Made by a program: the position numbers and the translations under genes
IMG/VR virus record: IMGVR_UViG_3300036770_007539
Span: 62,001-126,000 of that record
Source of the DNA: a virus
Strand: one strand, 5' to 3'
Length of the DNA: 64,000 nucleotides
In this document: positions 4,147 through 62,600 of the stretch, one piece after another
Layout: every line of letters begins with the position of its first letter
How positions within the stretch are numbered: position 1 is the first letter of the stretch
Notes under the pieces: generated by a model
The model's database searches: none
The model's input: the letters and a program-made list of their open reading frames with translations, nothing else
What the model was told of the DNA's origin: nothing

Positions 4147-4689
4147 ATGAAAAATACTTTGGAGCGGGATCGTGAGCGTTGGTTCGTTAATTCGGCTATT
4201 CGAGTGCCAAAAGTCATTTGTATCAATTCAGATGACAAGAACTTAGGCGCTCTCATCACTAGGGATGCTTTGAAGCTTGCTCAAGAGCAAGGCTTGGATT
4301 TAGTTCAACTGAGCCCGCCATCAAAAGATAAGCCGCCCACTTGTAAAATTATGGACTTTAGCAAGTTTAAATATGAAACTTCTAAAAAGAAAAAAGAAGC
4401 TGATAAAAAGCAGCGAGAATCCATTGTCAAAGTTAAAGAAATTAAATTCAAACCAACTACAGGCGCTCACGATTTAGAGATTAAAGCTAAGCAGGCAGAA
4501 AAATTTCTTCAAGAAAACATCAAGGTTAAGATTGCTATTCTATTTGTTGGTCGAGCAATCACTCATCAAGAACTTGGCACTCAAACTCTTGAGCAATTTT
4601 TAAGCTTTCTTCCAGAAAATTCATTTAAAATTGATGGAAATATTTCTTGGGAAGGAAAAGAACTTACATTGATAATTATGAAGCCATGA
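4147..4689 (+). CDS. infC: translation initiation factor IF-3
   Basis: A full-length IF-3 of 180 aa. The N-terminal domain has the canonical pattern from 'NSAIRVPKVICINSDDKNLG' through 'DALKLAQEQGLDLVQLSPPS', 'PPTCKIMDFSKFKYE' and a basic KKKK linker helix. The C-terminal domain has 'VKEIKFKPTTGAHDLEIK', 'FLQENIKVKIAILFVGRAITHQELG' and the closing 'DGNISWEGKELTLIIMKP'. IF-3 binds the 30S subunit, blocks premature 50S joining and monitors the start codon and initiator tRNA. Both domains are present, so it should be functional and could bias initiation towards phage mRNAs. It overlaps peptide deformylase by 4 nt (ATGA at 4686-4689). The Shine-Dalgarno sequence (GGAG near 4128) is rather distant. 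Confidence 0.95.
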   Translation: MKNTLERDRERWFVNSAIRVPKVICINSDDKNLGALITRDALKLAQEQGLDLVQLSPPSKDKPPTCKIMDFSKFKYETSKKKKEADKKQRESIVKVKEIKFKPTTGAHDLEIKAKQAEKFLQENIKVKIAILFVGRAITHQELGTQTLEQFLSFLPENSFKIDGNISWEGKELTLIIMKP

Positions 4690-5135
4690 TTCTTACAGAT
4701 GAAGAAACGGTAAGATCTTTAGGTCTTGCGGCTGAAGAAGTTTATAAGAATGAAATTGAAGATCTAAAAAGTATCTTAGAAAAAGAACTTCTTCTCTCTG
4801 AGAAGAGTGGAGTACCAGGAATAGGATTAGCATGCCCTCAAATTGGAATTCCTAAAAAAATGGCTATAATTAGAATGCCTGGAAAGACTTTTTTTTATGC
4901 AGATTTAGTCAATCCAGTTATTGAAGAGAAATATGATTTAAGTATATTTGATGGGGAGGGGTGCTTATCTTTTCCTGGTCTTTCTGGAAGAACTCAAAGA
5001 TACCAAGAAATAAAAGTAAAAAATTTACTAGGATTTCCTAAAAAATTTATTGCAACTGGATTGCCAGCAGTATGCATTCAACATGAAATAGATCATTTGC
5101 ACGGAATAGTACTGCCCGATTTAATTAAAGGATAA
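4686..5135 (+). CDS. def: peptide deformylase
   Basis: 149 aa starting at ATG 4686, which overlaps the infC stop; an in-frame upstream ATG at 4647 lies inside infC and is rejected. All three metal-site motifs are intact: GIGLACPQIG (GxGLAAPQ motif, Ala to Cys), EGCLSFPGL (EGCLS, metal Cys) and HEIDHLHG (HExDH, two metal His and catalytic Glu). It removes the N-formyl group from nascent peptides at the ribosome exit. Phage deformylases are known; many are shorter at the C-terminus, and this one likewise lacks the long C-terminal helix of E. coli Def. Overlap with infC suggests stoichiometric co-translation. Confidence 0.95.
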   Translation: MILTDEETVRSLGLAAEEVYKNEIEDLKSILEKELLLSEKSGVPGIGLACPQIGIPKKMAIIRMPGKTFFYADLVNPVIEEKYDLSIFDGEGCLSFPGLSGRTQRYQEIKVKNLLGFPKKFIATGLPAVCIQHEIDHLHGIVLPDLIKG

Positions 5136-12873: not shown

Positions 12874-13833
12874 ATGATAAGCTTAATAGTTACAGAGTCA
12901 GATCTAGAAAAAATAGCAGGAATTCCAGTATTTGTAACGGTAGAAACAAATATTCCATCTACTATTTTTTATACGCTAGATGGCTCAGATCCGACGCCAT
13001 TATCGTCTATTTATATAGATAAAATTAATTTACCCACTGTCAATTCAAAAATAACATTAAAAATATTTGCTACTAACGGAATAATAAATTCCACTATTTT
13101 TTCTAAAATATACGGAGCTTCTTTTGTAGGCATTGACCCTGGCTCCGCTCAAGTATCCAATTATAACCAGTATAGAACTGGCACAAATTACGCTCCATTT
13201 GGAGACATGCTCCAAGATGTAAGCCCAATTTTTGGTCCTGCTGCTGGTCTTATTATTGACAACGGCAACGTTCAAAATGTTTTAGATGGATACGATTCCG
13301 ATGGCAACAGAGTAGGGTCTATTGATGAAGGCGTTGGAAGGCTTGATTTTATTTATTCCGAAACAGATGGAAAAGGTAATGTTGGGAGAGGTATAGGTAC
13401 TGTTTCTTATTCAACAATTCGAGAGCCAGAATCTCCGCCAGATCAATCAAGTGTTAATAATAAATTCTTTAATCCTAGAGCTAAAATTATTTTTCAATCA
13501 TATGAAGACACTGAAAATCAAGACATTTCTATGTTAAATAGAAGTCAATTCACTTTAATAAATCCAGAAAAGTTTAATGGTGGCTCACAATACTATTATA
13601 ATCCTGGAACTTTACAAACCACTGGCGGAGCGCTCCGCCAACATTTTAATCCAAAAGACTCAACAATAACTTATTATTATTTCGATTCGGCATCTTTGCG
13701 TTGGGTCATTTCAAAAGAAAAATTCTTGCCATCTATTTCTACTAATTATGCAAACATAGTTCCAGTGAGTAGAACCTCTGGAACTGGATTAGTATTTAAA
13801 TGGTATCCATTCTTTAGGAGCCGTATTATATGA
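12874..13833 (+). CDS. virion-type protein with chitobiase C-terminal-like (CHB_HEX_C) domain
   Basis: 319 aa. Residues about 15-85 form a fibronectin-III-like fold with the diagnostic 'TIFYTLDGSDPTPLSSIYID' loop of CHB_HEX_C domains, followed by 'ITLKIFATNG'. The rest is Asn/Gly/Tyr-rich beta structure ('GVGRLDFIYSETDGKG', 'FNGGSQYYYNPGTLQ', 'TYYYFDSASLRWVISKE'), typical of phage fibre, neck or baseplate proteins. There is no catalytic domain. It is an isolated structural-looking gene within the replication block. The last 4 nt overlap the nuclease gene. Confidence 0.65.
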   Translation: MISLIVTESDLEKIAGIPVFVTVETNIPSTIFYTLDGSDPTPLSSIYIDKINLPTVNSKITLKIFATNGIINSTIFSKIYGASFVGIDPGSAQVSNYNQYRTGTNYAPFGDMLQDVSPIFGPAAGLIIDNGNVQNVLDGYDSDGNRVGSIDEGVGRLDFIYSETDGKGNVGRGIGTVSYSTIREPESPPDQSSVNNKFFNPRAKIIFQSYEDTENQDISMLNRSQFTLINPEKFNGGSQYYYNPGTLQTTGGALRQHFNPKDSTITYYYFDSASLRWVISKEKFLPSISTNYANIVPVSRTSGTGLVFKWYPFFRSRII

Positions 13834-14708
13834 AGGGTATTTTGCTGGATGTTAGACCAGAAAAAAATATTAACACTTTAAATCTTAGCGTCAGTAAATT
13901 AAAAACATTTGAAGATTGTAAAGCAAAATTTAAATTTTCTTACATAGATAAGCTTCCTAAAAAGGAGTGGGAGTTTCATTCTTTTGGAAAATTTTTACAT
14001 GCCGTACTAGAGTATTTTCATATTATATTTCGTGATAATCCGGATCAGCCGCTAAATCTTTCTATGAAAGAAGCTTATCTTAAAGCAAAAGAAGTATACG
14101 AACCTAAGCTTTCCAAAGAAAAAGTTAAAGAAATTTGGGAGCTATGCTTTAATTATCTGAAAATTATTTCAGATAAAAGAAAAAATAATGCACTTTCTGA
14201 CTTTTTGGCAGCCGAAAAAGAATTTAACATTAACATAGAAGATACCATTCTTCTTAATGGTTTTATTGATAAGATTCAATTGGATTCTGATAAGATTTTG
14301 CATGTAGCTGATTATAAGACTTCAAAGAGCGATTCTTATTTAAAGAATGATTTTTTTCAGTTAAAAACATATGCTTATGTTATGTTCTTAACCGATCCTT
14401 CTTTAAAGAAGGTTAGAACTTCTTATATTATGGCAAGGATGAATTTTAAAGAAATAGTTAAGGAATTCACTCTTGACGATGTTAAAGATGTGGAAGATTA
14501 TTATCTAGAGAAGGCTGCTTTAATTAGGGCAGAGGCTGGATATAAACCAAAACCAAGTCGATTGTGTGACTATTGCGATTATTTAGAAAGCTGCCCAGAT
14601 GGGTCTAAGTTTTTGGCTTCAGTTGCACCTAGACAGACTAAAATTGTTCCAGTAGAAAAAGATAATACGTTATATTACAGTTCTGTAACTTGGTTTGATA
14701 CGAAATAA
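13830..14708 (+). CDS. PD-(D/E)XK nuclease, Cas4/AddB-like with 4-Cys Fe-S site
   Basis: 292 aa. 'LSVSKLKTFEDCKAKFKFSY' is the helical entry of RecB-family nucleases. 'FGKFLHAVLEYF' carries the motif His. The catalytic core is 'NGFIDKIQ' (Asp near 148), then 'LHVADYKTSKSDSY' (D and K near 162-165) and 'FFQLKTYAYVMF' (QxxxY). One Cys in FEDC plus C-x2-C-x5-C in 'RLCDYCDYLESC' near the C-terminus gives the classical four-Cys iron-sulfur arrangement of Cas4/AddB/Dna2 nucleases. Likely a 5' or flap exonuclease in replication and recombination. No CRISPR genes are nearby. Confidence 0.88.
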   Translation: MKGILLDVRPEKNINTLNLSVSKLKTFEDCKAKFKFSYIDKLPKKEWEFHSFGKFLHAVLEYFHIIFRDNPDQPLNLSMKEAYLKAKEVYEPKLSKEKVKEIWELCFNYLKIISDKRKNNALSDFLAAEKEFNINIEDTILLNGFIDKIQLDSDKILHVADYKTSKSDSYLKNDFFQLKTYAYVMFLTDPSLKKVRTSYIMARMNFKEIVKEFTLDDVKDVEDYYLEKAALIRAEAGYKPKPSRLCDYCDYLESCPDGSKFLASVAPRQTKIVPVEKDNTLYYSSVTWFDTK

Positions 14709-14752
14709 CTTAAATAATTTATTTTAATTTTAAAAATTAAGAAAGGTATATT

Positions 14753-15994
14753 ATGACTCTTCAAGTTCAAGAAGTTGATTTATGCAAATTAAATGTACAA
14801 TACGTGGCTCCGAATGAAAAAGTAAAAGAAGCAAGATCAAAAGCCATAGATCGAATTAGGCGAGAAAAAGTTCCAGTAAAGGGCTATAGACCAGGCACAG
14901 CACCTAATCATGTCATTGAATTTGCCATGAAATCTACAATTGATTCTTTAGCTGCAAAAGATCTGGTATCTGATGCATATAATGATCTTATTTTTCAGCA
15001 CAAAATAAAAACTTTATTTTATCCAAAAGTAGACCATCAATCTTTTGATAATGGTAAATTTCATTGTGAAATGACGGTCTGGAAAAAACCAGAGGTAGAT
15101 CTAAAAGAATACAAAGGTTTTAATATTCCAAAGCCAGCAACAGAAAATGTCAAAGATTTAACTGCTAAAATGCTGCAAGATTTAAGAATGAAAAATGGAG
15201 AGTCAAGACCTTATAACGAAGGTGATTTTGTTCAGCTTGGAGATAAAATCACTCTAGATATTAAAGCAGAATGCGAAGGGGAAGTTATAAATGAACTAAC
15301 TCAAGAGGGTATGCTTTATCAAGTTGGTCAATTTAAAGAGCTTGACGAGAATCTGTCGGGAATGGTGCCCGATGAAACAAAATCTTTTAAAGTTCAAATG
15401 GCAGAAGATGCTCCTGTAGATTCAATTAAAAATAAGATCATTGATTTTACAGTAACTTTGCACATGGGCATGAGAACTGAGCCTGCTGCGCTAGATGATG
15501 AGCTTGCCAAAAAACTAGGAATGTCCAATCTCTCTCAATTGGAGACTTATGTAAATTCTATGTTTGATGCCCAATTAAAAGATAAAGAGAAAAAACTATT
15601 AAATAATCAATTATTTATTAGATTAATCGAAAACAACCCTTTTGATGTTCCTTCATGGCTAGTAGAACTTGAAGCCGAAAATTCAGCGAAAACCAGAGGA
15701 GTTGAACTTTCTTCTTTACCAGCAGAAATTCGTCAAAAAGTCCTTGTCGAATCCGAGAAAGCTGTTAAGCTTAGCCTGATCCTAGACTCAATCAGAGAAA
15801 ATGAACCAGAAACATCTTTCTCTGAAAGAGAATTATTAAATCTATTGCGCATGAAAGTTTCAGAGTCTGGAAGTAATCCAGATGAATTTATTAAGCAAGC
15901 ATCCAAAGATGGATCTATTTTTGGTATTATTGCTAATATGAAAGATACTGCGACGGTAGATTGGATTCTTAAACACTGTAACATTGTAGATTGA
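14753..15994 (+). CDS. tig: trigger factor (ribosome-associated chaperone and prolyl isomerase)
   Basis: 413 aa, close to the 430 aa of bacterial trigger factors. The N-terminal domain has the ribosome-binding signature KGYRPGTAP (residues 43-51; usually GFRxGxxP), then 'VIEFAMKSTIDSLAAKDLVSDAY'. The middle (about 160-240) is an FKBP-like PPIase domain ('LGDKITLDIKAECEGEVINE', 'LYQVGQFKELDENLSGM', 'FKVQMAEDAP'). The C-terminal arms (250-413) are helical. It binds L23 at the exit tunnel and shelters nascent chains. AAGG precedes the ATG at 14753. All three domains are present, so this is not a remnant. It is a rare cargo for a phage; with IF-3, deformylase and DnaJ it forms a nascent-protein set. 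Confidence 0.9.
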   Translation: MTLQVQEVDLCKLNVQYVAPNEKVKEARSKAIDRIRREKVPVKGYRPGTAPNHVIEFAMKSTIDSLAAKDLVSDAYNDLIFQHKIKTLFYPKVDHQSFDNGKFHCEMTVWKKPEVDLKEYKGFNIPKPATENVKDLTAKMLQDLRMKNGESRPYNEGDFVQLGDKITLDIKAECEGEVINELTQEGMLYQVGQFKELDENLSGMVPDETKSFKVQMAEDAPVDSIKNKIIDFTVTLHMGMRTEPAALDDELAKKLGMSNLSQLETYVNSMFDAQLKDKEKKLLNNQLFIRLIENNPFDVPSWLVELEAENSAKTRGVELSSLPAEIRQKVLVESEKAVKLSLILDSIRENEPETSFSERELLNLLRMKVSESGSNPDEFIKQASKDGSIFGIIANMKDTATVDWILKHCNIVD

Positions 15995-16008: not shown

Positions 16009-16290
16009 ATGTCAGATGAAACCAATGATTTTCCAACAAAATGGCTAAATAAACTTCCAGAATCTATTAAAGATTCTGTTGGATCAATGTCAGATGATGA
16101 AGTTAAAGAAAGACTTATTGAAGTTGAAAAAGGAATTTCTCAATTTGAGCAAGACATGGAGAAAGACGAAAAATTAGCAGCTGCAAAGCAGCTAGTGAAA
16201 GAACTCAAAGAAACGTACACAATACCAATCAAAGAACACCAGATAATGGTTAAGTTTCTAGTTTGGAACCTAGAGCAACGCGGAAAATAA
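16009..16290 (+). CDS. small acidic hypothetical protein (93 aa)
   Basis: ATG 16009 follows AAAGGA at good spacing; an upstream in-frame ATG at 15991 overlaps the trigger-factor stop and is less likely. Acidic, helical: MSDETNDFPTKWLNKLPESI... then 'YTIPIKEHQIMVKFLVWNLEQRGK', reminiscent of proteins that accompany replication genes but without a recognised family. Lies between trigger factor and a 93-aa gene in the run to dnaE. Confidence 0.65.
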   Translation: MSDETNDFPTKWLNKLPESIKDSVGSMSDDEVKERLIEVEKGISQFEQDMEKDEKLAAAKQLVKELKETYTIPIKEHQIMVKFLVWNLEQRGK

Positions 16291-16305: not shown

Positions 16306-16587
16306 ATGGCTATCAAAACTCATACGATTAAATCTTGCTGTGGAAATTCAAGTACAATCCTTGAGACTGATAAGCCATTAAGAAAATATCAGGTAGACGT
16401 ATTCAAGCAGGCTGGGTACGTCATACCTGATAATTTTTTTAATTCTGGGGTATTTTACGCCCAAAAAGATGGTCTTATTGCTACGGGCTCATTTGGCACC
16501 AATAAAATTAGTTTGCGAGTATCTCCCCGCTCACAAGACTTAATTCAAGAATTTTCTCAGCTGCTGGAGGCTGCAGTTTCTAAATGA
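16306..16587 (+). CDS. small hypothetical protein (93 aa)
   Basis: Preceded by AAAGGA and starting at ATG 16306. Begins MAIKTHTIKSCCGNSSTILE; the remaining sequence alternates short strands and helices ('GVFYAQKDGLIATGSFGTNK') and ends in a helix (LIQEFSQLLEAAVSK). The last 4 nt overlap dnaE (ATGA), implying translational coupling to the polymerase. Function unknown. Confidence 0.65.
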   Translation: MAIKTHTIKSCCGNSSTILETDKPLRKYQVDVFKQAGYVIPDNFFNSGVFYAQKDGLIATGSFGTNKISLRVSPRSQDLIQEFSQLLEAAVSK

Positions 16588-19500
16588 AAGATTTTGTTTC
16601 TTTTCACAATCACACCACATATTCAGTATTAGATTCTTTAATTAGACCAAGAGATCTTTTTTATAGAGCCAAAGAATTAGGTCAGTCTGCAATTGCTGTA
16701 ACCGATCACGCAACTTTGGCTGCTGCGCATGATTGCCTTCATGCTAGTAAGGAGACTGGCGTAAAACTAATTATGGGGTGTGAATTTAATTTTGTAGATG
16801 ATTTAAATTCTACAAATAAAAATGATAGATGGCGACATGTGATTCTTTGCGCCAAAAATTATAATGGATATAAGAACCTTTTAAAACTAAGTAGAGAAGC
16901 AAACAATTATAATGTTATTGCTTTCAAAAAGACATTTCCTAGAATTGATTGGTCTTTGCTAGAAAAATATTCTTCTGATTTAATTTGTACCACAGCTTGT
17001 GCTGGTGGAATACTTGGTCAATTAATCAATACCAGGCAAATTGAAACTGCTAAACTTCAAGCTAAAAGATTGAAGTCTATTTTTGAAGACGACCTTGCCT
17101 TGGAAATTCAACCTCACGCTTTAAAAAGACAAATTAGTACGATGAATGATTATATTGACCAGACTTTGGTTAATAACATCTTAATTAAGATCGGTAAAGA
17201 ATTAGATATTAAAGTCATTCCAACAACAGACGCTCATTATCTTTACAGAGAAGATGCGGAGGCGCATGATGTGGAGTTGGCTATTGGCTCAGGTCAGCCA
17301 GTTGAATCAAATAATAGATTACGTTACTATAATACTAGCGATAGCTCTCTTCATTCTGAGTTTTATATGAAATCTCGGGATGAAGTTGTTTCTTTCTTTT
17401 CTCGTCTCTATAAGGAAAAAGCAGATGAATGGGCAGACAACACTCTATACTTTGCTGAAAAATGTGAATTTCCAAACTGGATTGACCCAGCCTTTACCAA
17501 TCCTTCTAAACGAGAACTTCCAGATTTTCCAGTAAAAGATCAGCCTGATTATAAGAAATTTCTTGTTTGGAAGCACGAGCATCTTGAAAAAGAATGTCCA
17601 GAAGACGAGGCATATCTTAGATATGTTGTATATTCAAATCTTGATTCTAGAGCTAAAATGCCAAATATTGAAGCATATAAAGCCAGAATTGAAGATGAGT
17701 TTGAAGTTATTGCAGGTAAGAAATTCAATAGTTATATGTTAATTGTGGCGGATATTTTAGATTTCTGTCGCAAGAATAATATTTCTACTGGCTATGGTCG
17801 AGGCAGTGCCGGTGGAAGTTTAATTGCTTATCTTGCTAGAATTCACGAAGCAGACCCTCTAAAATATAACTTAATTTTTGAACGATTCCAAAATCGTGAA
17901 AAAACGGCTATGCCCGATATCGATCTTGATTTCTCCAAGCGAAATCGAGAAAAGGTTCTTGAATATATTTATAAAAAATATGGCAATGAATACGTGGCTC
18001 AAATTGCCAACTATATGGAATTGACGCCTAAGCCATATGCTAGAGCCATTTCAAGAGTTTATAAACTGGGCGGAGACTTTAAATCTGCTGTTAAGATAGG
18101 TAATGAAATTGCAGGCGCAATTCCAGATGATATTCATAAAGTATCTGATTTGATAGATAATGCACCCCTATATGCTGAATATAGCAAATTCTATCCACAA
18201 TTAGCCAAGAGTTCTCAAAAACTTGGAAATATATTTGCTGCTTTTTCTAAGCATGCAGCAGGGTTGGTTATTGGAAAAAGAAAGCTTGAAGAAATTGTAC
18301 CATTACGTATAGATAAAGAAGGCTTTATTGTTCTTGAATATGAAAAAGAGCGAGCCGAAGCCAATGGATTAGTTAAGATGGATATTCTTGGTCTTGAGAC
18401 TTTGGATATTATTGATGACTGCTTTGAGTTAATTAAAAAACAAGGTAAGCCATTACCATCCGAGCCTTTTGACTTTGAAATGTATGATGAAAAGACTTAT
18501 GATTTGATTGCTTCCGGAAATACTTTTGCTGTATTCCAGCTTGGAACTTCAGGGGCAACCATGGATCTTTGCAGGAAGATTAAGCCTAAATCCATTCTTG
18601 ATTTAGCTCTAATCAATGCCTTAGCACGACCTGCCACCGCTGATATTAGGGATGAGTTTTCAAAGGTGCGAAATGGGGAGAAGCCAATGGAGTTATTGCA
18701 TCCTTCATTGCAAAGAGCTTTCGGATTTACCTATGGTTTTGGTCTTTTCGAAGAATCTCTTATGTTCTTAGCTCAAGATGTTGCAGGTTGGACTCTTAAT
18801 GAAGCTGATGCCTTGCGAAAATTGACTAAAGAAAAAGGTAAAAATCCTGAGAAGGCAGCAAAATTACGTAAAAACTTTATTGATAAATCAGTGGAAAATA
18901 ATATTGATGTAAGTATTGCTACTACAGTGTGGGATGATGTAATTTCTAAATTTTCTGGGTATGGGTTCAATTTGAGCCACGCTGTATTTTATTCCTTTCT
19001 AGGATTCAAGACAGCCTATCTAAAAGCTCACTATCCATTAGAGTTTCTTACCGCCAACTTAATTGCGGAAGCTAATTCCAATGCTAAGAACGCTCCTGAT
19101 AATATTCTTAAAATCAAGCAAGAACTTCGCTCATCAGGTGTAAAAGTTCTACCTCCTGATATTAATAAATCTGAAATGACCTATAATATCATTGACGATA
19201 ATACATTGCTAACGGGTTTTGATTCATTAAAATTTATGAGCAATGATGCCATTCCAGAGATTATTGCTCATCGTCCATATAACTCTTTTGAAGATTTTAT
19301 GAGAAAAGTCAGCGCCAAGAAAGTTAAGATTAATAGTGTTTATGCTTTGATTGGATCTGGTTGCTTTGATTGTTTTGGCATGAGTCGTAAGCAAATGTAT
19401 TTATACGCCGCTGATTACAGAAAGAAGCTATCACTTTATCTGTCCAGGGCAGAAGATGCAACCCAGCCTTTTAACTATCCTTTTCCAGAGGTTGGAGATT

Positions 19501-20195
19501 TTACTATTCCAGAAAAAAATGCATTTGAAATTTTTTATTTAGGGGAAGGATTAACTGGGACGCCATTTGAAATTTATCCTGAATTTTTTGATAAGTCGTC
19601 TGTAAATTTTGCAAATCTTGCTAAAGACTTTCCAGACAAAGAAGAAAATGGTTTTTCAGTAGATATCCCATCTGGATATGGATATCTTCAAGGAATTATT
19701 GAAAATTATTTTACTTTTAAGATTAAAAAAGAAACTTCTAAAAATTTTGGAAGAGAAATGGGAAAGATCTCTTTAAGAGATCCTTTTGGTAATTCTATTG
19801 CTCTGACATTATTTCCGGATGAATTAGAAAACTTTAAAAAAGATATCAGAAAAGTCATGGGCTCTAAATTTGTGATAGAACCTGGAGTGGCAATTAATTT
19901 TGCAGGAGGGTTAAATTGGTATGAGGGATCTCCTAGCTTAATTCTTAAACAGTTAAGAAAAATTGCAGGTATACCTCAAAAACCATCTAAGGATCAATTA
20001 AAGCCACAGAAAGTCAATTTAAAAATTGCTAACTCTAAAAAGAAAAAATCAACTACTATGATGGAATTTTTAGATGAAATTAATGAGGAATTAGAAGAGA
20101 ATGGAATTGTTGAAAATCAAGATTTAGAAAAAAATGATCTATTAGATATAGATGAGTTATCTGAGTTTCAGGCGCCAGAAGACAACGACGATTAA
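16584..20195 (+). CDS. dnaE: DNA polymerase III alpha subunit (C-family replicative polymerase)
   Basis: 1203 aa, full-length DnaE. The N-terminal PHP domain has 'SFHNHTTYSVLDSL', 'AVTDHATLAA', 'IMGCEFNF' and 'PTTDAHYLY', keeping the metal-ligand positions that E. coli DnaE has partly lost. Palm motifs: 'STGYGRGSAGGSLIAYL' (about 403), 'AMPDIDLDFSKRNRE' (two catalytic Asp, about 443), and 'VKMDILGLETL' (third Asp, about 598). 'SKHAAGLVI' and 'FELSHA'-type segments ('GFNLSHAVFYSFLGFKTAYLKAHYP') follow. The C-terminal OB/tau-binding part is divergent and ends in an acidic tail. It would be the phage replicase. The retained PHP site could provide proofreading. It is unusual next to T4-type recombination genes, which normally accompany a B-family polymerase. 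Confidence 0.96.
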   Translation: MKDFVSFHNHTTYSVLDSLIRPRDLFYRAKELGQSAIAVTDHATLAAAHDCLHASKETGVKLIMGCEFNFVDDLNSTNKNDRWRHVILCAKNYNGYKNLLKLSREANNYNVIAFKKTFPRIDWSLLEKYSSDLICTTACAGGILGQLINTRQIETAKLQAKRLKSIFEDDLALEIQPHALKRQISTMNDYIDQTLVNNILIKIGKELDIKVIPTTDAHYLYREDAEAHDVELAIGSGQPVESNNRLRYYNTSDSSLHSEFYMKSRDEVVSFFSRLYKEKADEWADNTLYFAEKCEFPNWIDPAFTNPSKRELPDFPVKDQPDYKKFLVWKHEHLEKECPEDEAYLRYVVYSNLDSRAKMPNIEAYKARIEDEFEVIAGKKFNSYMLIVADILDFCRKNNISTGYGRGSAGGSLIAYLARIHEADPLKYNLIFERFQNREKTAMPDIDLDFSKRNREKVLEYIYKKYGNEYVAQIANYMELTPKPYARAISRVYKLGGDFKSAVKIGNEIAGAIPDDIHKVSDLIDNAPLYAEYSKFYPQLAKSSQKLGNIFAAFSKHAAGLVIGKRKLEEIVPLRIDKEGFIVLEYEKERAEANGLVKMDILGLETLDIIDDCFELIKKQGKPLPSEPFDFEMYDEKTYDLIASGNTFAVFQLGTSGATMDLCRKIKPKSILDLALINALARPATADIRDEFSKVRNGEKPMELLHPSLQRAFGFTYGFGLFEESLMFLAQDVAGWTLNEADALRKLTKEKGKNPEKAAKLRKNFIDKSVENNIDVSIATTVWDDVISKFSGYGFNLSHAVFYSFLGFKTAYLKAHYPLEFLTANLIAEANSNAKNAPDNILKIKQELRSSGVKVLPPDINKSEMTYNIIDDNTLLTGFDSLKFMSNDAIPEIIAHRPYNSFEDFMRKVSAKKVKINSVYALIGSGCFDCFGMSRKQMYLYAADYRKKLSLYLSRAEDATQPFNYPFPEVGDFTIPEKNAFEIFYLGEGLTGTPFEIYPEFFDKSSVNFANLAKDFPDKEENGFSVDIPSGYGYLQGIIENYFTFKIKKETSKNFGREMGKISLRDPFGNSIALTLFPDELENFKKDIRKVMGSKFVIEPGVAINFAGGLNWYEGSPSLILKQLRKIAGIPQKPSKDQLKPQKVNLKIANSKKKKSTTMMEFLDEINEELEENGIVENQDLEKNDLLDIDELSEFQAPEDNDD

Positions 20196-59667: not shown

Positions 59668-62600
59668 ATGAAAAAAGAAGATAATTTTATCAGCAGCCCA
59701 GTCCTTAGAGAATATTACAATACAGCCATTGAAAAAGGCTGGATTTCTAATGAAGTTGCAGTTAAAACTGCCTCATTGGAAGCTGATCGTTATTCTCCTA
59801 CTGGAAATCTAATGCAGGATTTAGTCAATCTTGCATTTGGTTTGCGAGAGGCGGGTCTATATTCTCAAGCTGAGTCTTTAGAGACAAAGATTAATATTTT
59901 CAAAAAAGCTCAAATAGAACTTGGGTTAATTGATCAAAAAAGCTTATTGATGCAGCAACATGCTCATCCTGAGAATGCTAAAATCGTTGATGCTCAAAAT
60001 GGCTGGGGCGTAGTTCATACAAATGTAGATAGACAACGTAAAATTTTAGAAACCCTAACACATCAACCCAAAGGAATGCATCAAGAAGCTATTAAAACAA
60101 TATCTCTTGCTGCTGCTGAAGCTTTGGGCTTATTAAAGTTAGCTCAAGATGATGGAGATGGGCTTGTAGAAAGTTCGCCTGGCGATGCATTGGGTGAAGA
60201 TGGGGAAGACATGGATGAGACAGTGCCAGAGTCTGGTCAAATATTGCCTTCTGGTAAATTGGTAGATCCTGCCATGGCGCAAAAAGTATCTGCCCATAAA
60301 AATATAACAAAAACAACATATGCTTCTATTAAAAATTCATTAAAAGCTATTAATGGAGCTTTTAGTAAAATTAAAAACAATACTAAACTCTTCTCCAAAG
60401 ATTCCATATTAAAAAATATGGAGAGCCCCACTTCTAAGTGGTATCTATCAGTTATTGGGGCAGATTCTGAGTCTCTTAAAAATTTAGAAAGACTAACTAG
60501 TAATTTTGGAACTACTCCAGAATCCGCTGCTGCAAAAATTGAAGCAATGGAATATGAGTCTTTAAAAAGTCTTATAACATCAGCAATGCCTGCCTATGGA
60601 GGATATGTTATAGGAACTAATTTTAGTTATCCAATGATGGCAGCTCCAGGAGCTAAAAGAGTAAGAAGCAGACAAGAAAGAAAAGAAAAAGCTGAAAGAG
60701 GCTTTTTCGATAAAATATTTGATTCAGAAACTAAATCTGAAGAAGTTGCTAAAGATACTACTCCAGAAGAAATGAAACTGGACATAGTAGAAAAAGCAAA
60801 GTACGATGATCGATACAAGCAAAATAAAAATTCAATTTGGTCAGGAATTATGAGCTATGCAGACCGTCCAAAATTGGGCGGAATCGAGCAGTCGCCTGAA
60901 AAAGTTGCTAGATTGGCAAACGCTATCTCCCAGCATATTTCTAGCGAGAGCGAAAAATTATTTTCAGAAGATAATATTCAAGCAGCAGGCGCTGCTGCAA
61001 TAGCTAAATATTCTACAGTTGTTAATACATTAAATAAAATTTCAACTCAAATTAATGTTGGATTAAACGCCATTTATCCAGACCGAGTAGAGTTATTTAC
61101 ATCTATTACAAAAAGGTCTGCGGCGCTATCAAGATATTTAAATGACCAAAAAGATGAGTTGATTCCAGTTTCTTCTCTTGGGCTCTTTCAAGAGATTCTA
61201 GGAAACGTAGCAGCTATCAATGCCTCTGCTTTAAATGCCGTTTCTGTATTTGAAACCAATCCTATTAGCACAGAGCTTGAATCTCCTAGGGTATCTTCTA
61301 AGAAGGCAAAGCCTATTTTAGATAATTTGGTTTACTGCATTAACATGATGGATCAATATGCTGATTATTTGAGAGTAAAAGCTCCTAATGGTCCAGATTA
61401 TAAGAAAGTCACAAATTATTATAATAAAATGATGGCTATTCATCAAGCCGTTAATGCCAATCAAAATAAAACTTGGGCAGACGTTCAAGCCGCCATTGCA
61501 GGTAAAGCTGGATTGAGTTTTGAATCTTATGATCATCTTAATTCTTATATTGCAAATCTTAGAAACCGAGTTGCGCAAGCTGTTGCTCAAAGCCCTGGAT
61601 TAGGAGTTAAGGCAAGCGATGATAATCAAGTGGTAAAATTGGGTCAATCCATGCTTGAAGAAGCAGTAAGTAATGTTAAAGGAACTATAGGAAATCTTTT
61701 CGGGGGTATACCTGCGGCTGCGGGTCCCGTTGCTACTCCCGCAGCCGCAGCAGCTGCAATTGGAGCAGTAGGAGCAATAGGAGAACCCTTGACTCCTGAA
61801 CCAAAAAAAGTGGATTCATCAGTTAAAACCCCAGATGTAGCTGCGTTTAATCCTGCCCCTTCAGGCGGCGTGGCTGCGGGCGGCGGGGCTGCAGGCGCAG
61901 GCTCTGGTGGAGTATCTAGTGGCAAAGGACCTTCTGCTCCAGCAACAAGCAAAGATAAACTTTCTGCAGCCAGACAAAAAGTTTGGGAAATGCAAGAAAT
62001 GCTTCAAGAATTATCAGAGTTCTTAACAAAGAACCCAAGTAAAGCCCCAGAAGCAAATAAGGCTGATTTTGATACCATTATGTTCGTTGGGAGATCCAAT
62101 CAAAAAGGAAGCCTAGATGGAGATTGGGGCAGAAGAACCACCAGCTCAATCACCGCTGCAAACAAAGCAACTAAATTAAGTTTAACTCCTTCTCCTTCAA
62201 ATAAAGCTGATGAATCAGTTTTATCGAATGAAGCTACTAAGAACACTCAAGCCATACAAAATTGGCTAGACAATAACGGATGGACAAGAGCAGGGGAGAG
62301 ACCAGCAGTGGAGCTTGACAGAATTTCCATGGCTATATTTGATTATACTTCCGAGGCAACTGCCCAACAAGATCCAAATGGAACTCCATTAAAAGATAAA
62401 GATCTATCTTCCTTATATGCTTTTTATAAATATTTAGAAAAATTTGTTTCAGAACTAAGTATATTGCCTAAAGATCAATGGTTTTTAATATTTAGCTGGT
62501 TTAACGGCAGAGTGGAGGCATTACTTGGATCTGAACAAATTCCAGCAGGTAAAAAACCTATTTTTAATACTTATAAAAATTATATTTCTAATTTAAATTT

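Follow-up and report, generated by a model that had tools for sequence, protein, structure and literature searches.

A lineage of huge phages carries a genuine full-length trigger factor (TF), which is nearly universal in the lineage and is encoded at a conserved place among the replication genes. TF is the chaperone that is normally first to meet new proteins leaving the bacterial ribosome, and phages are generally assumed to depend on host machinery for this first folding at the ribosome exit. We consider it likely that the phage protein is a phage-owned co-translational chaperone that acts, together with bS21 and peptide deformylase (PDF), on host ribosomes during infection; its docking, the displacement of host TF and the benefit to the phage are inferred. 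The DNA that we analysed, hereafter the window, is 64,000 nucleotides long and was taken from a 301,007-bp virus record (G000:C1:62001-126000), which contains one Trigger_N match. The terminase, portal, DnaE, SbcCD, UvsX and SSB proteins of the window match phage families, and its closest annotated phage relatives are ~32% identical in DnaE and ~25% identical in TerL.

Identity and domains of the phage trigger factor

The TF open reading frame (14753..15994, + strand) begins with an ATG that has a good ribosome-binding site ahead of it, a Shine-Dalgarno-like AGAAAGG at 14740..14746 (+), and encodes a 413 aa protein with an N-terminal ribosome-binding domain, an FKBP-like middle domain and C-terminal arms. 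The protein matches the TIGR00115 "tig" equivalog with 207.5 bits over residues 12–406, compared to a cut-off of 180.2 that is also passed by P0002 (202.0 bits) and P0003 (205.1 bits). Above their gathering scores are also Trigger_N (PF05697; 2.9e-22, 80 bits, residues 1–139) and Trigger_C, the arm or chaperone domain (PF05698; 5.2e-12, 46.5 bits, residues 260–406), and all three models are matched by each of the 28 aligned phage TFs. A PDB sequence search with the window TF returned trigger factors only. The AlphaFold2 model, for which 28 phage homologues were used as input, has a mean pLDDT of 88.2 and a pTM of 0.65; its top Foldseek match by E-value is T. maritima TF (3gty, E 3.2e-21), and E. 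coli TF 1w26 (E 1.3e-20, TM 0.72 by query length) and 2vrh were also matched. An earlier note made from the DNA alone had proposed a full-length phage TF, and the equivalog, domain and fold matches bear this out; the Trigger_N match likewise removes the objection that the ribosome-binding domain might find no HMM support.

The ribosome-binding signature GYRPG that was read from the sequence is present as VKGYRPG at residues 42–48, and the codons of the uL23-docking signature K-G-Y-R-P-G-T (residues 43–49) lie at 14879..14899 (+). The loop residues G43 and R45 (E. coli numbering) are found in 59/59 aligned phage TFs, even among proteins down to ~30% identity, and F/Y44 is found in 57 of the 59. 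GFR or GYR occurs at the docking loop in 78 of 84 unique phage TFs.

The middle domain of the window TF is FKBP-like in profile and structure matches: the model aligns over its full length with 1w26, and the E. coli TF PPIase domain 1l1p was matched as well. Pfam FKBP_C has no match in the window TF and is matched in 17/28 phage relatives. The PPIase positions W151, F168, F198, Y221 and F233 of E. coli TF are S, I, L, A and F in the window protein; they are variable in bacterial TFs too. F198 is kept in 54/59 phage TFs, most of which have an aromatic residue at 168, and Y221 is absent from their common residues. Judged by these residues, the PPIase pocket appears mostly eroded in the window TF, and isomerase activity is probably low or absent because the active-site residues are changed and there is no FKBP_C match. 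The three domains that the earlier note had described are thus present as N-domain, arms and FKBP-like fold, but the isomerase is probably weak or inactive in this copy. The docking loop and arms are retained, the PPIase domain less so.

Two of the phage TFs contain His-rich segments. In one (L268:12290-13768) the C-terminal domain has a Cys/His-rich insert and is followed by a tail of repeated ETQVE, and the other (L075:9914-11332) has a His-rich C-terminal tail; metal binding is possible in both. Short TFs of ~300 aa are encoded in two Omnitrophota MAGs (L033:4001-4894 and L035:2605-3528), and the L033 genome has a TF match that lacks the middle PPIase part.

Locus, distribution and ancestry

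Upstream of the TF gene are an FN3/CHB_HEX-like protein (12874..13833, +; PF13290, PF13287) and, directly adjacent, a PD-(D/E)XK nuclease (13830..14708, +; PF12705, 1.1e-28). Downstream follow p99, a small helical protein with a likely ATG at 16009 (16009..16290, +), p93, a small protein with a CCG motif conserved in most relatives (16306..16587, +), and a DnaE-type DNA polymerase (16584..20195, +; phrog_405, 7e-244) that anchors the conserved block. The gene was therefore placed correctly between nuclease and replicase genes. For p99, a predicted helical hairpin, there was no PDB fold match, and no function could be taken from its fold.

A first scan of IMG/VR added a single contig, which is identical across 23.6 kb or more and may come from the same population. 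A DnaE-led search recovered contigs that carry TF in the same position, at 66% and 40% identity, and iterated alignment searches of IMG/VR yielded 29 and then 64 TF-bearing contigs of up to 480 kb. All 64 have the FN3-like gene, the PD-(D/E)XK nuclease directly upstream of TF, TF itself, and then p93 and DnaE; p99 follows TF in 63/64. To avoid selecting on TF we used the FN3-like protein, a lineage marker, as scan query. TF is present at 76 of the best 80 loci and the strict order PDDEXK-TF-p93-DnaE at 72. The remaining four (L261, L265, L266 and L271) have no TF at the locus and no Trigger_N in their whole records, all of which may be fragments, and they rank among the most divergent of the 80. 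Either TF was gained after these deep relatives had split off or it was lost in them, and the data do not decide between the two.

These contigs also speak to whether a bacterial tig was joined onto a phage contig by artefact, since a bacterial-phage chimera at about 14.7 kb had been named as what would overturn the finding. The concern has some substance, as annotated-phage TF hits with recognisable neighbours turn out to be bacterial tig-clpP-clpX loci, but one phage gene order recurs in 64/64 contigs, and from this recurrence we conclude that the window is not a chimera. The TF gene moreover has the composition of its neighbours (GC 0.343, GC3 0.227) and the phage TFs occupy their own branch, leaving an artefact barely conceivable.

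In an unrooted LG+C20 PMSF tree built from 32 phage and 52 bacterial TFs, the branch that splits phage TFs from all sampled bacterial TFs has support of 100/97 and is found in 200/200 bootstrap trees, and two other trees agree; the phage side consists of a main group and a deep group, each supported by 100/100. Phage copies thus do form a separate branch, as the earlier note had suggested a phylogeny might reveal, within the limits of a bacterial sample drawn mostly from Bacteroidota, Bacillota, Verrucomicrobiota, Acidobacteriota, Aquificota and few others. The tree was also considered as a guide to the host. Acidobacteriota were nearest in the first tree with weak support (56) and fell inside the bacterial side in the larger tree, and for this reason we claim no host. 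As far as base composition can indicate, the likeness of the gene to its neighbours fits an old acquisition. The dN/dS of TF is 0.05 in the close pair L058/L063 (dS 0.08) and 0.14 between the window and L011, where dS is near saturation; by these estimates TF is under purifying selection. In the latter pair TF is 66% identical compared to 90% for DnaE, showing that TF diverges faster.

Other genes of the block vary among relatives. Some DnaE open reading frames are much longer, up to 1575–1634 aa (L163:5598-10325, L064:12169-17073, L073:12504-17387, L268:14533-18894), and the insert in L163, which begins at GRGCLSGDT and ends with VHNS, is intein-like and lies in the polymerase active-site region. 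At 11 loci (L197, L200, L201, L202, L203, L207, L210, L215, L233, L248 and L259) the first DnaE frame stops at ~2.7 kb compared to 3.5 kb in relatives, possibly through introns, homing genes or frameshifts. Some relatives (L013:11841-12524, L014:12049-12705) have, between p93 and DnaE, a ~220-aa HExxH protein that is absent from the window; its match to FtsH peptidase (M41; E 0.0036) is weak and below cut-off. Deep relatives encode sigma-70-like proteins just downstream of the nuclease (L163:1186-1776, L265:10624-11394, L261:6430-7290; checked against Pfam for L163 and L265 only). Five tRNA genes (Gln, Ser, Thr, Lys and Leu) occur in the 301-kb record G000 (L043, L044, L054), all of them outside the window.

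Ribosome-associated companions and the proposed role of the phage protein

About 10 kb upstream of TF the window encodes a PDF (4647..5135, +; PF01327, 100.9 bits, above cut-off) with intact GIGLACPQ, EGCLS and QHEIDH motifs, and just outside the window lies a gene for ribosomal protein bS21 (G000 60753-61088; PF01165, 64.9 bits versus a cut-off of 27). Among 30 TF-bearing records searched, PDF was found in 24 and bS21 in 23; apart from one 266-kb record without PDF, those lacking either gene are contigs of no more than 60 kb. In the TF-bearing records above 70 kb that were searched (n=21), bS21 is present in 21/21 and PDF in 20/21. Records G000 and G001 do not count as independent here, being identical wherever they were compared. 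The three genes shared among records therefore constitute a conserved set tied to the ribosome, with bS21 at initiation, PDF at deformylation and TF at first folding, which suggests that these phages bring their own kit for protein maturation on host ribosomes. GroEL (Cpn60) was not found in 11 lineage records of at least 200 kb.

In the mechanism that we favour, a bacterial tig gene would have been acquired long ago by the phage lineage and inherited since then together with the phage replication gene block. The N-terminal domain would dock on the host ribosome through the conserved G-[F/Y]-R loop, which would contact uL23; this is inferred, as there are no binding data and the uL23 of the host is unknown. 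The arm domain may then shield nascent phage proteins, with the phage TF supplementing or displacing host TF and working alongside bS21 (initiation) and PDF (N-terminal processing at the tunnel exit), while prolyl isomerisation is probably not what matters in the window TF. That the protein might replace or compete with host TF had been proposed in the earlier note; it remains an inference, made more credible because PDF and bS21 are co-conserved. Chaperone activity and a benefit to phage proteins are equally inferred in the absence of binding or infection data. The benefit is not obvious, since E. coli does not require TF in normal growth conditions (PMC8185961), and the position of the TF gene in the replication block, not beside PDF or bS21, counts against our reading, as do the faster divergence of TF than of DnaE between the window and L011 and the absence of TF at this locus in four deep relatives.

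Bacterial TF also acts post-translationally, and in T. maritima a dimer of TF surrounds folded uS7 (PMC8185961). The phage protein could by analogy do most of its work away from the ribosome, as a holdase or a chaperone for assembly that takes large virion or replisome proteins into its arm cavity. The place of 3gty as top Foldseek match is in keeping with such a role, and in phages where no GroEL was found (the 11 large records) a virus-encoded chaperone for assembly might be of use. The invariance of G43 and R45 down to ~30% identity would be unexpected if ribosome binding were dispensable, however, and the co-conserved PDF and bS21 are ribosome factors too, so we hold this role to be unlikely without dismissing it. 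Less likely again is that TF is mainly a competitor that takes uL23 and ousts host TF, SRP or SecA, impairing maturation or export of host proteins. The uL23 docking site is indeed common to TF, SRP and SecA (PMC8185961) and the phage docking motif is intact, but a blocker would need the N-domain only, and the arm domain (Trigger_C) is kept in 28/28 copies and is under purifying selection. The location of TF in the SbcCD-nuclease-DnaE block, followed by p99 and p93, led us to consider in addition a replisome-associated chaperone; this invariable place beside replication genes is its sole evidence, and p99 has no recognisable fold match, making such a role very improbable.

A co-translational chaperone on host ribosomes thus remains our preferred reading. 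A bolder version of it, which we offer tentatively and would not yet bet on, is that the lineage has made TF a core viral gene which, with bS21 and PDF, re-equips host ribosomes both where initiation occurs and at the tunnel exit, with a TF that in some members has lost isomerase activity and is adapted to the nascent chains of the phage. An anciently acquired, lineage-wide phage TF means that the first chaperone met by a nascent chain can be viral, and phage customisation of host ribosomes, from initiation through deformylation to first folding, becomes directly testable. The lineage also provides 84 naturally diverged TFs in which the docking loop is conserved and the isomerase domain drifts, and TF is a marker gene for an uncultured, widespread huge-phage lineage.

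Comparison with known systems

None of the papers retrieved by full-text searches reports a phage TF; supplements, subscription papers and preprints were outside the scope of these searches, and because of this incomplete coverage priority is not proven. S21 and PDF are among the translation factors that Al-Shayeb et al. 2020 describe from huge phages, with TF absent from the main text (PMC7162821), the main text of Mizuno et al. 2019 does not mention TF (PMC6375957), and a Southern Ocean virome study stated that a TF analogue was undetected (PMC8407431). The description of TF as rarely reported in phages agrees with this but is understated, as TF is near-universal in this lineage. The BFVD viral structure models gave no TF match at E <= 0.001.

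Two apparent precedents were set aside. PHROG 26774, the sole PHROG matched by the window TF (~100 bits), scores 165–436 bits with bacterial tig compared to 100–112 with phage TFs, and therefore describes bacterial-type TF and not a phage TF family. Of the annotated-phage TF hits, MT835986, MT835536 and CAKLQH020000005 proved to be bacterial tig-clpP-clpX loci and not true relatives; the neighbour check left out OR844993 and the remaining hits. From their tig-clpP-clpX order, these three public "phage" records (L004, L005 and L040), among them CAKLQH020000005 (Acinetobacter phage MD-2021a), appear mislabelled.

Phage GroEL-like chaperonins resemble the phage TF in being virus-owned folding helpers; they are post-translational cages with a fold unrelated to TF, and Cpn60 is the protein that was not found in the 11 large lineage records. 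The closer parallel is with the PDF and S21 of huge phages, host-like ribosome-associated proteins that are thought to redirect translation (PMC7162821, PMC6375957) and that are both present in this lineage; they were already known from those papers, neither of whose main texts mentions TF. Compared to bacterial TF (tig; E. coli 1w26/2vrh, T. maritima 3gty), the phage protein is alike in three-domain layout, length, docking loop, TIGR00115 score and fold. The best bacterial copies found share 19–28% identity with it; it stands on a separate branch, its PPIase pocket appears partly eroded, and whereas bacterial tig lies beside clpP-clpX, the phage TF resides in the replication block of huge phages.
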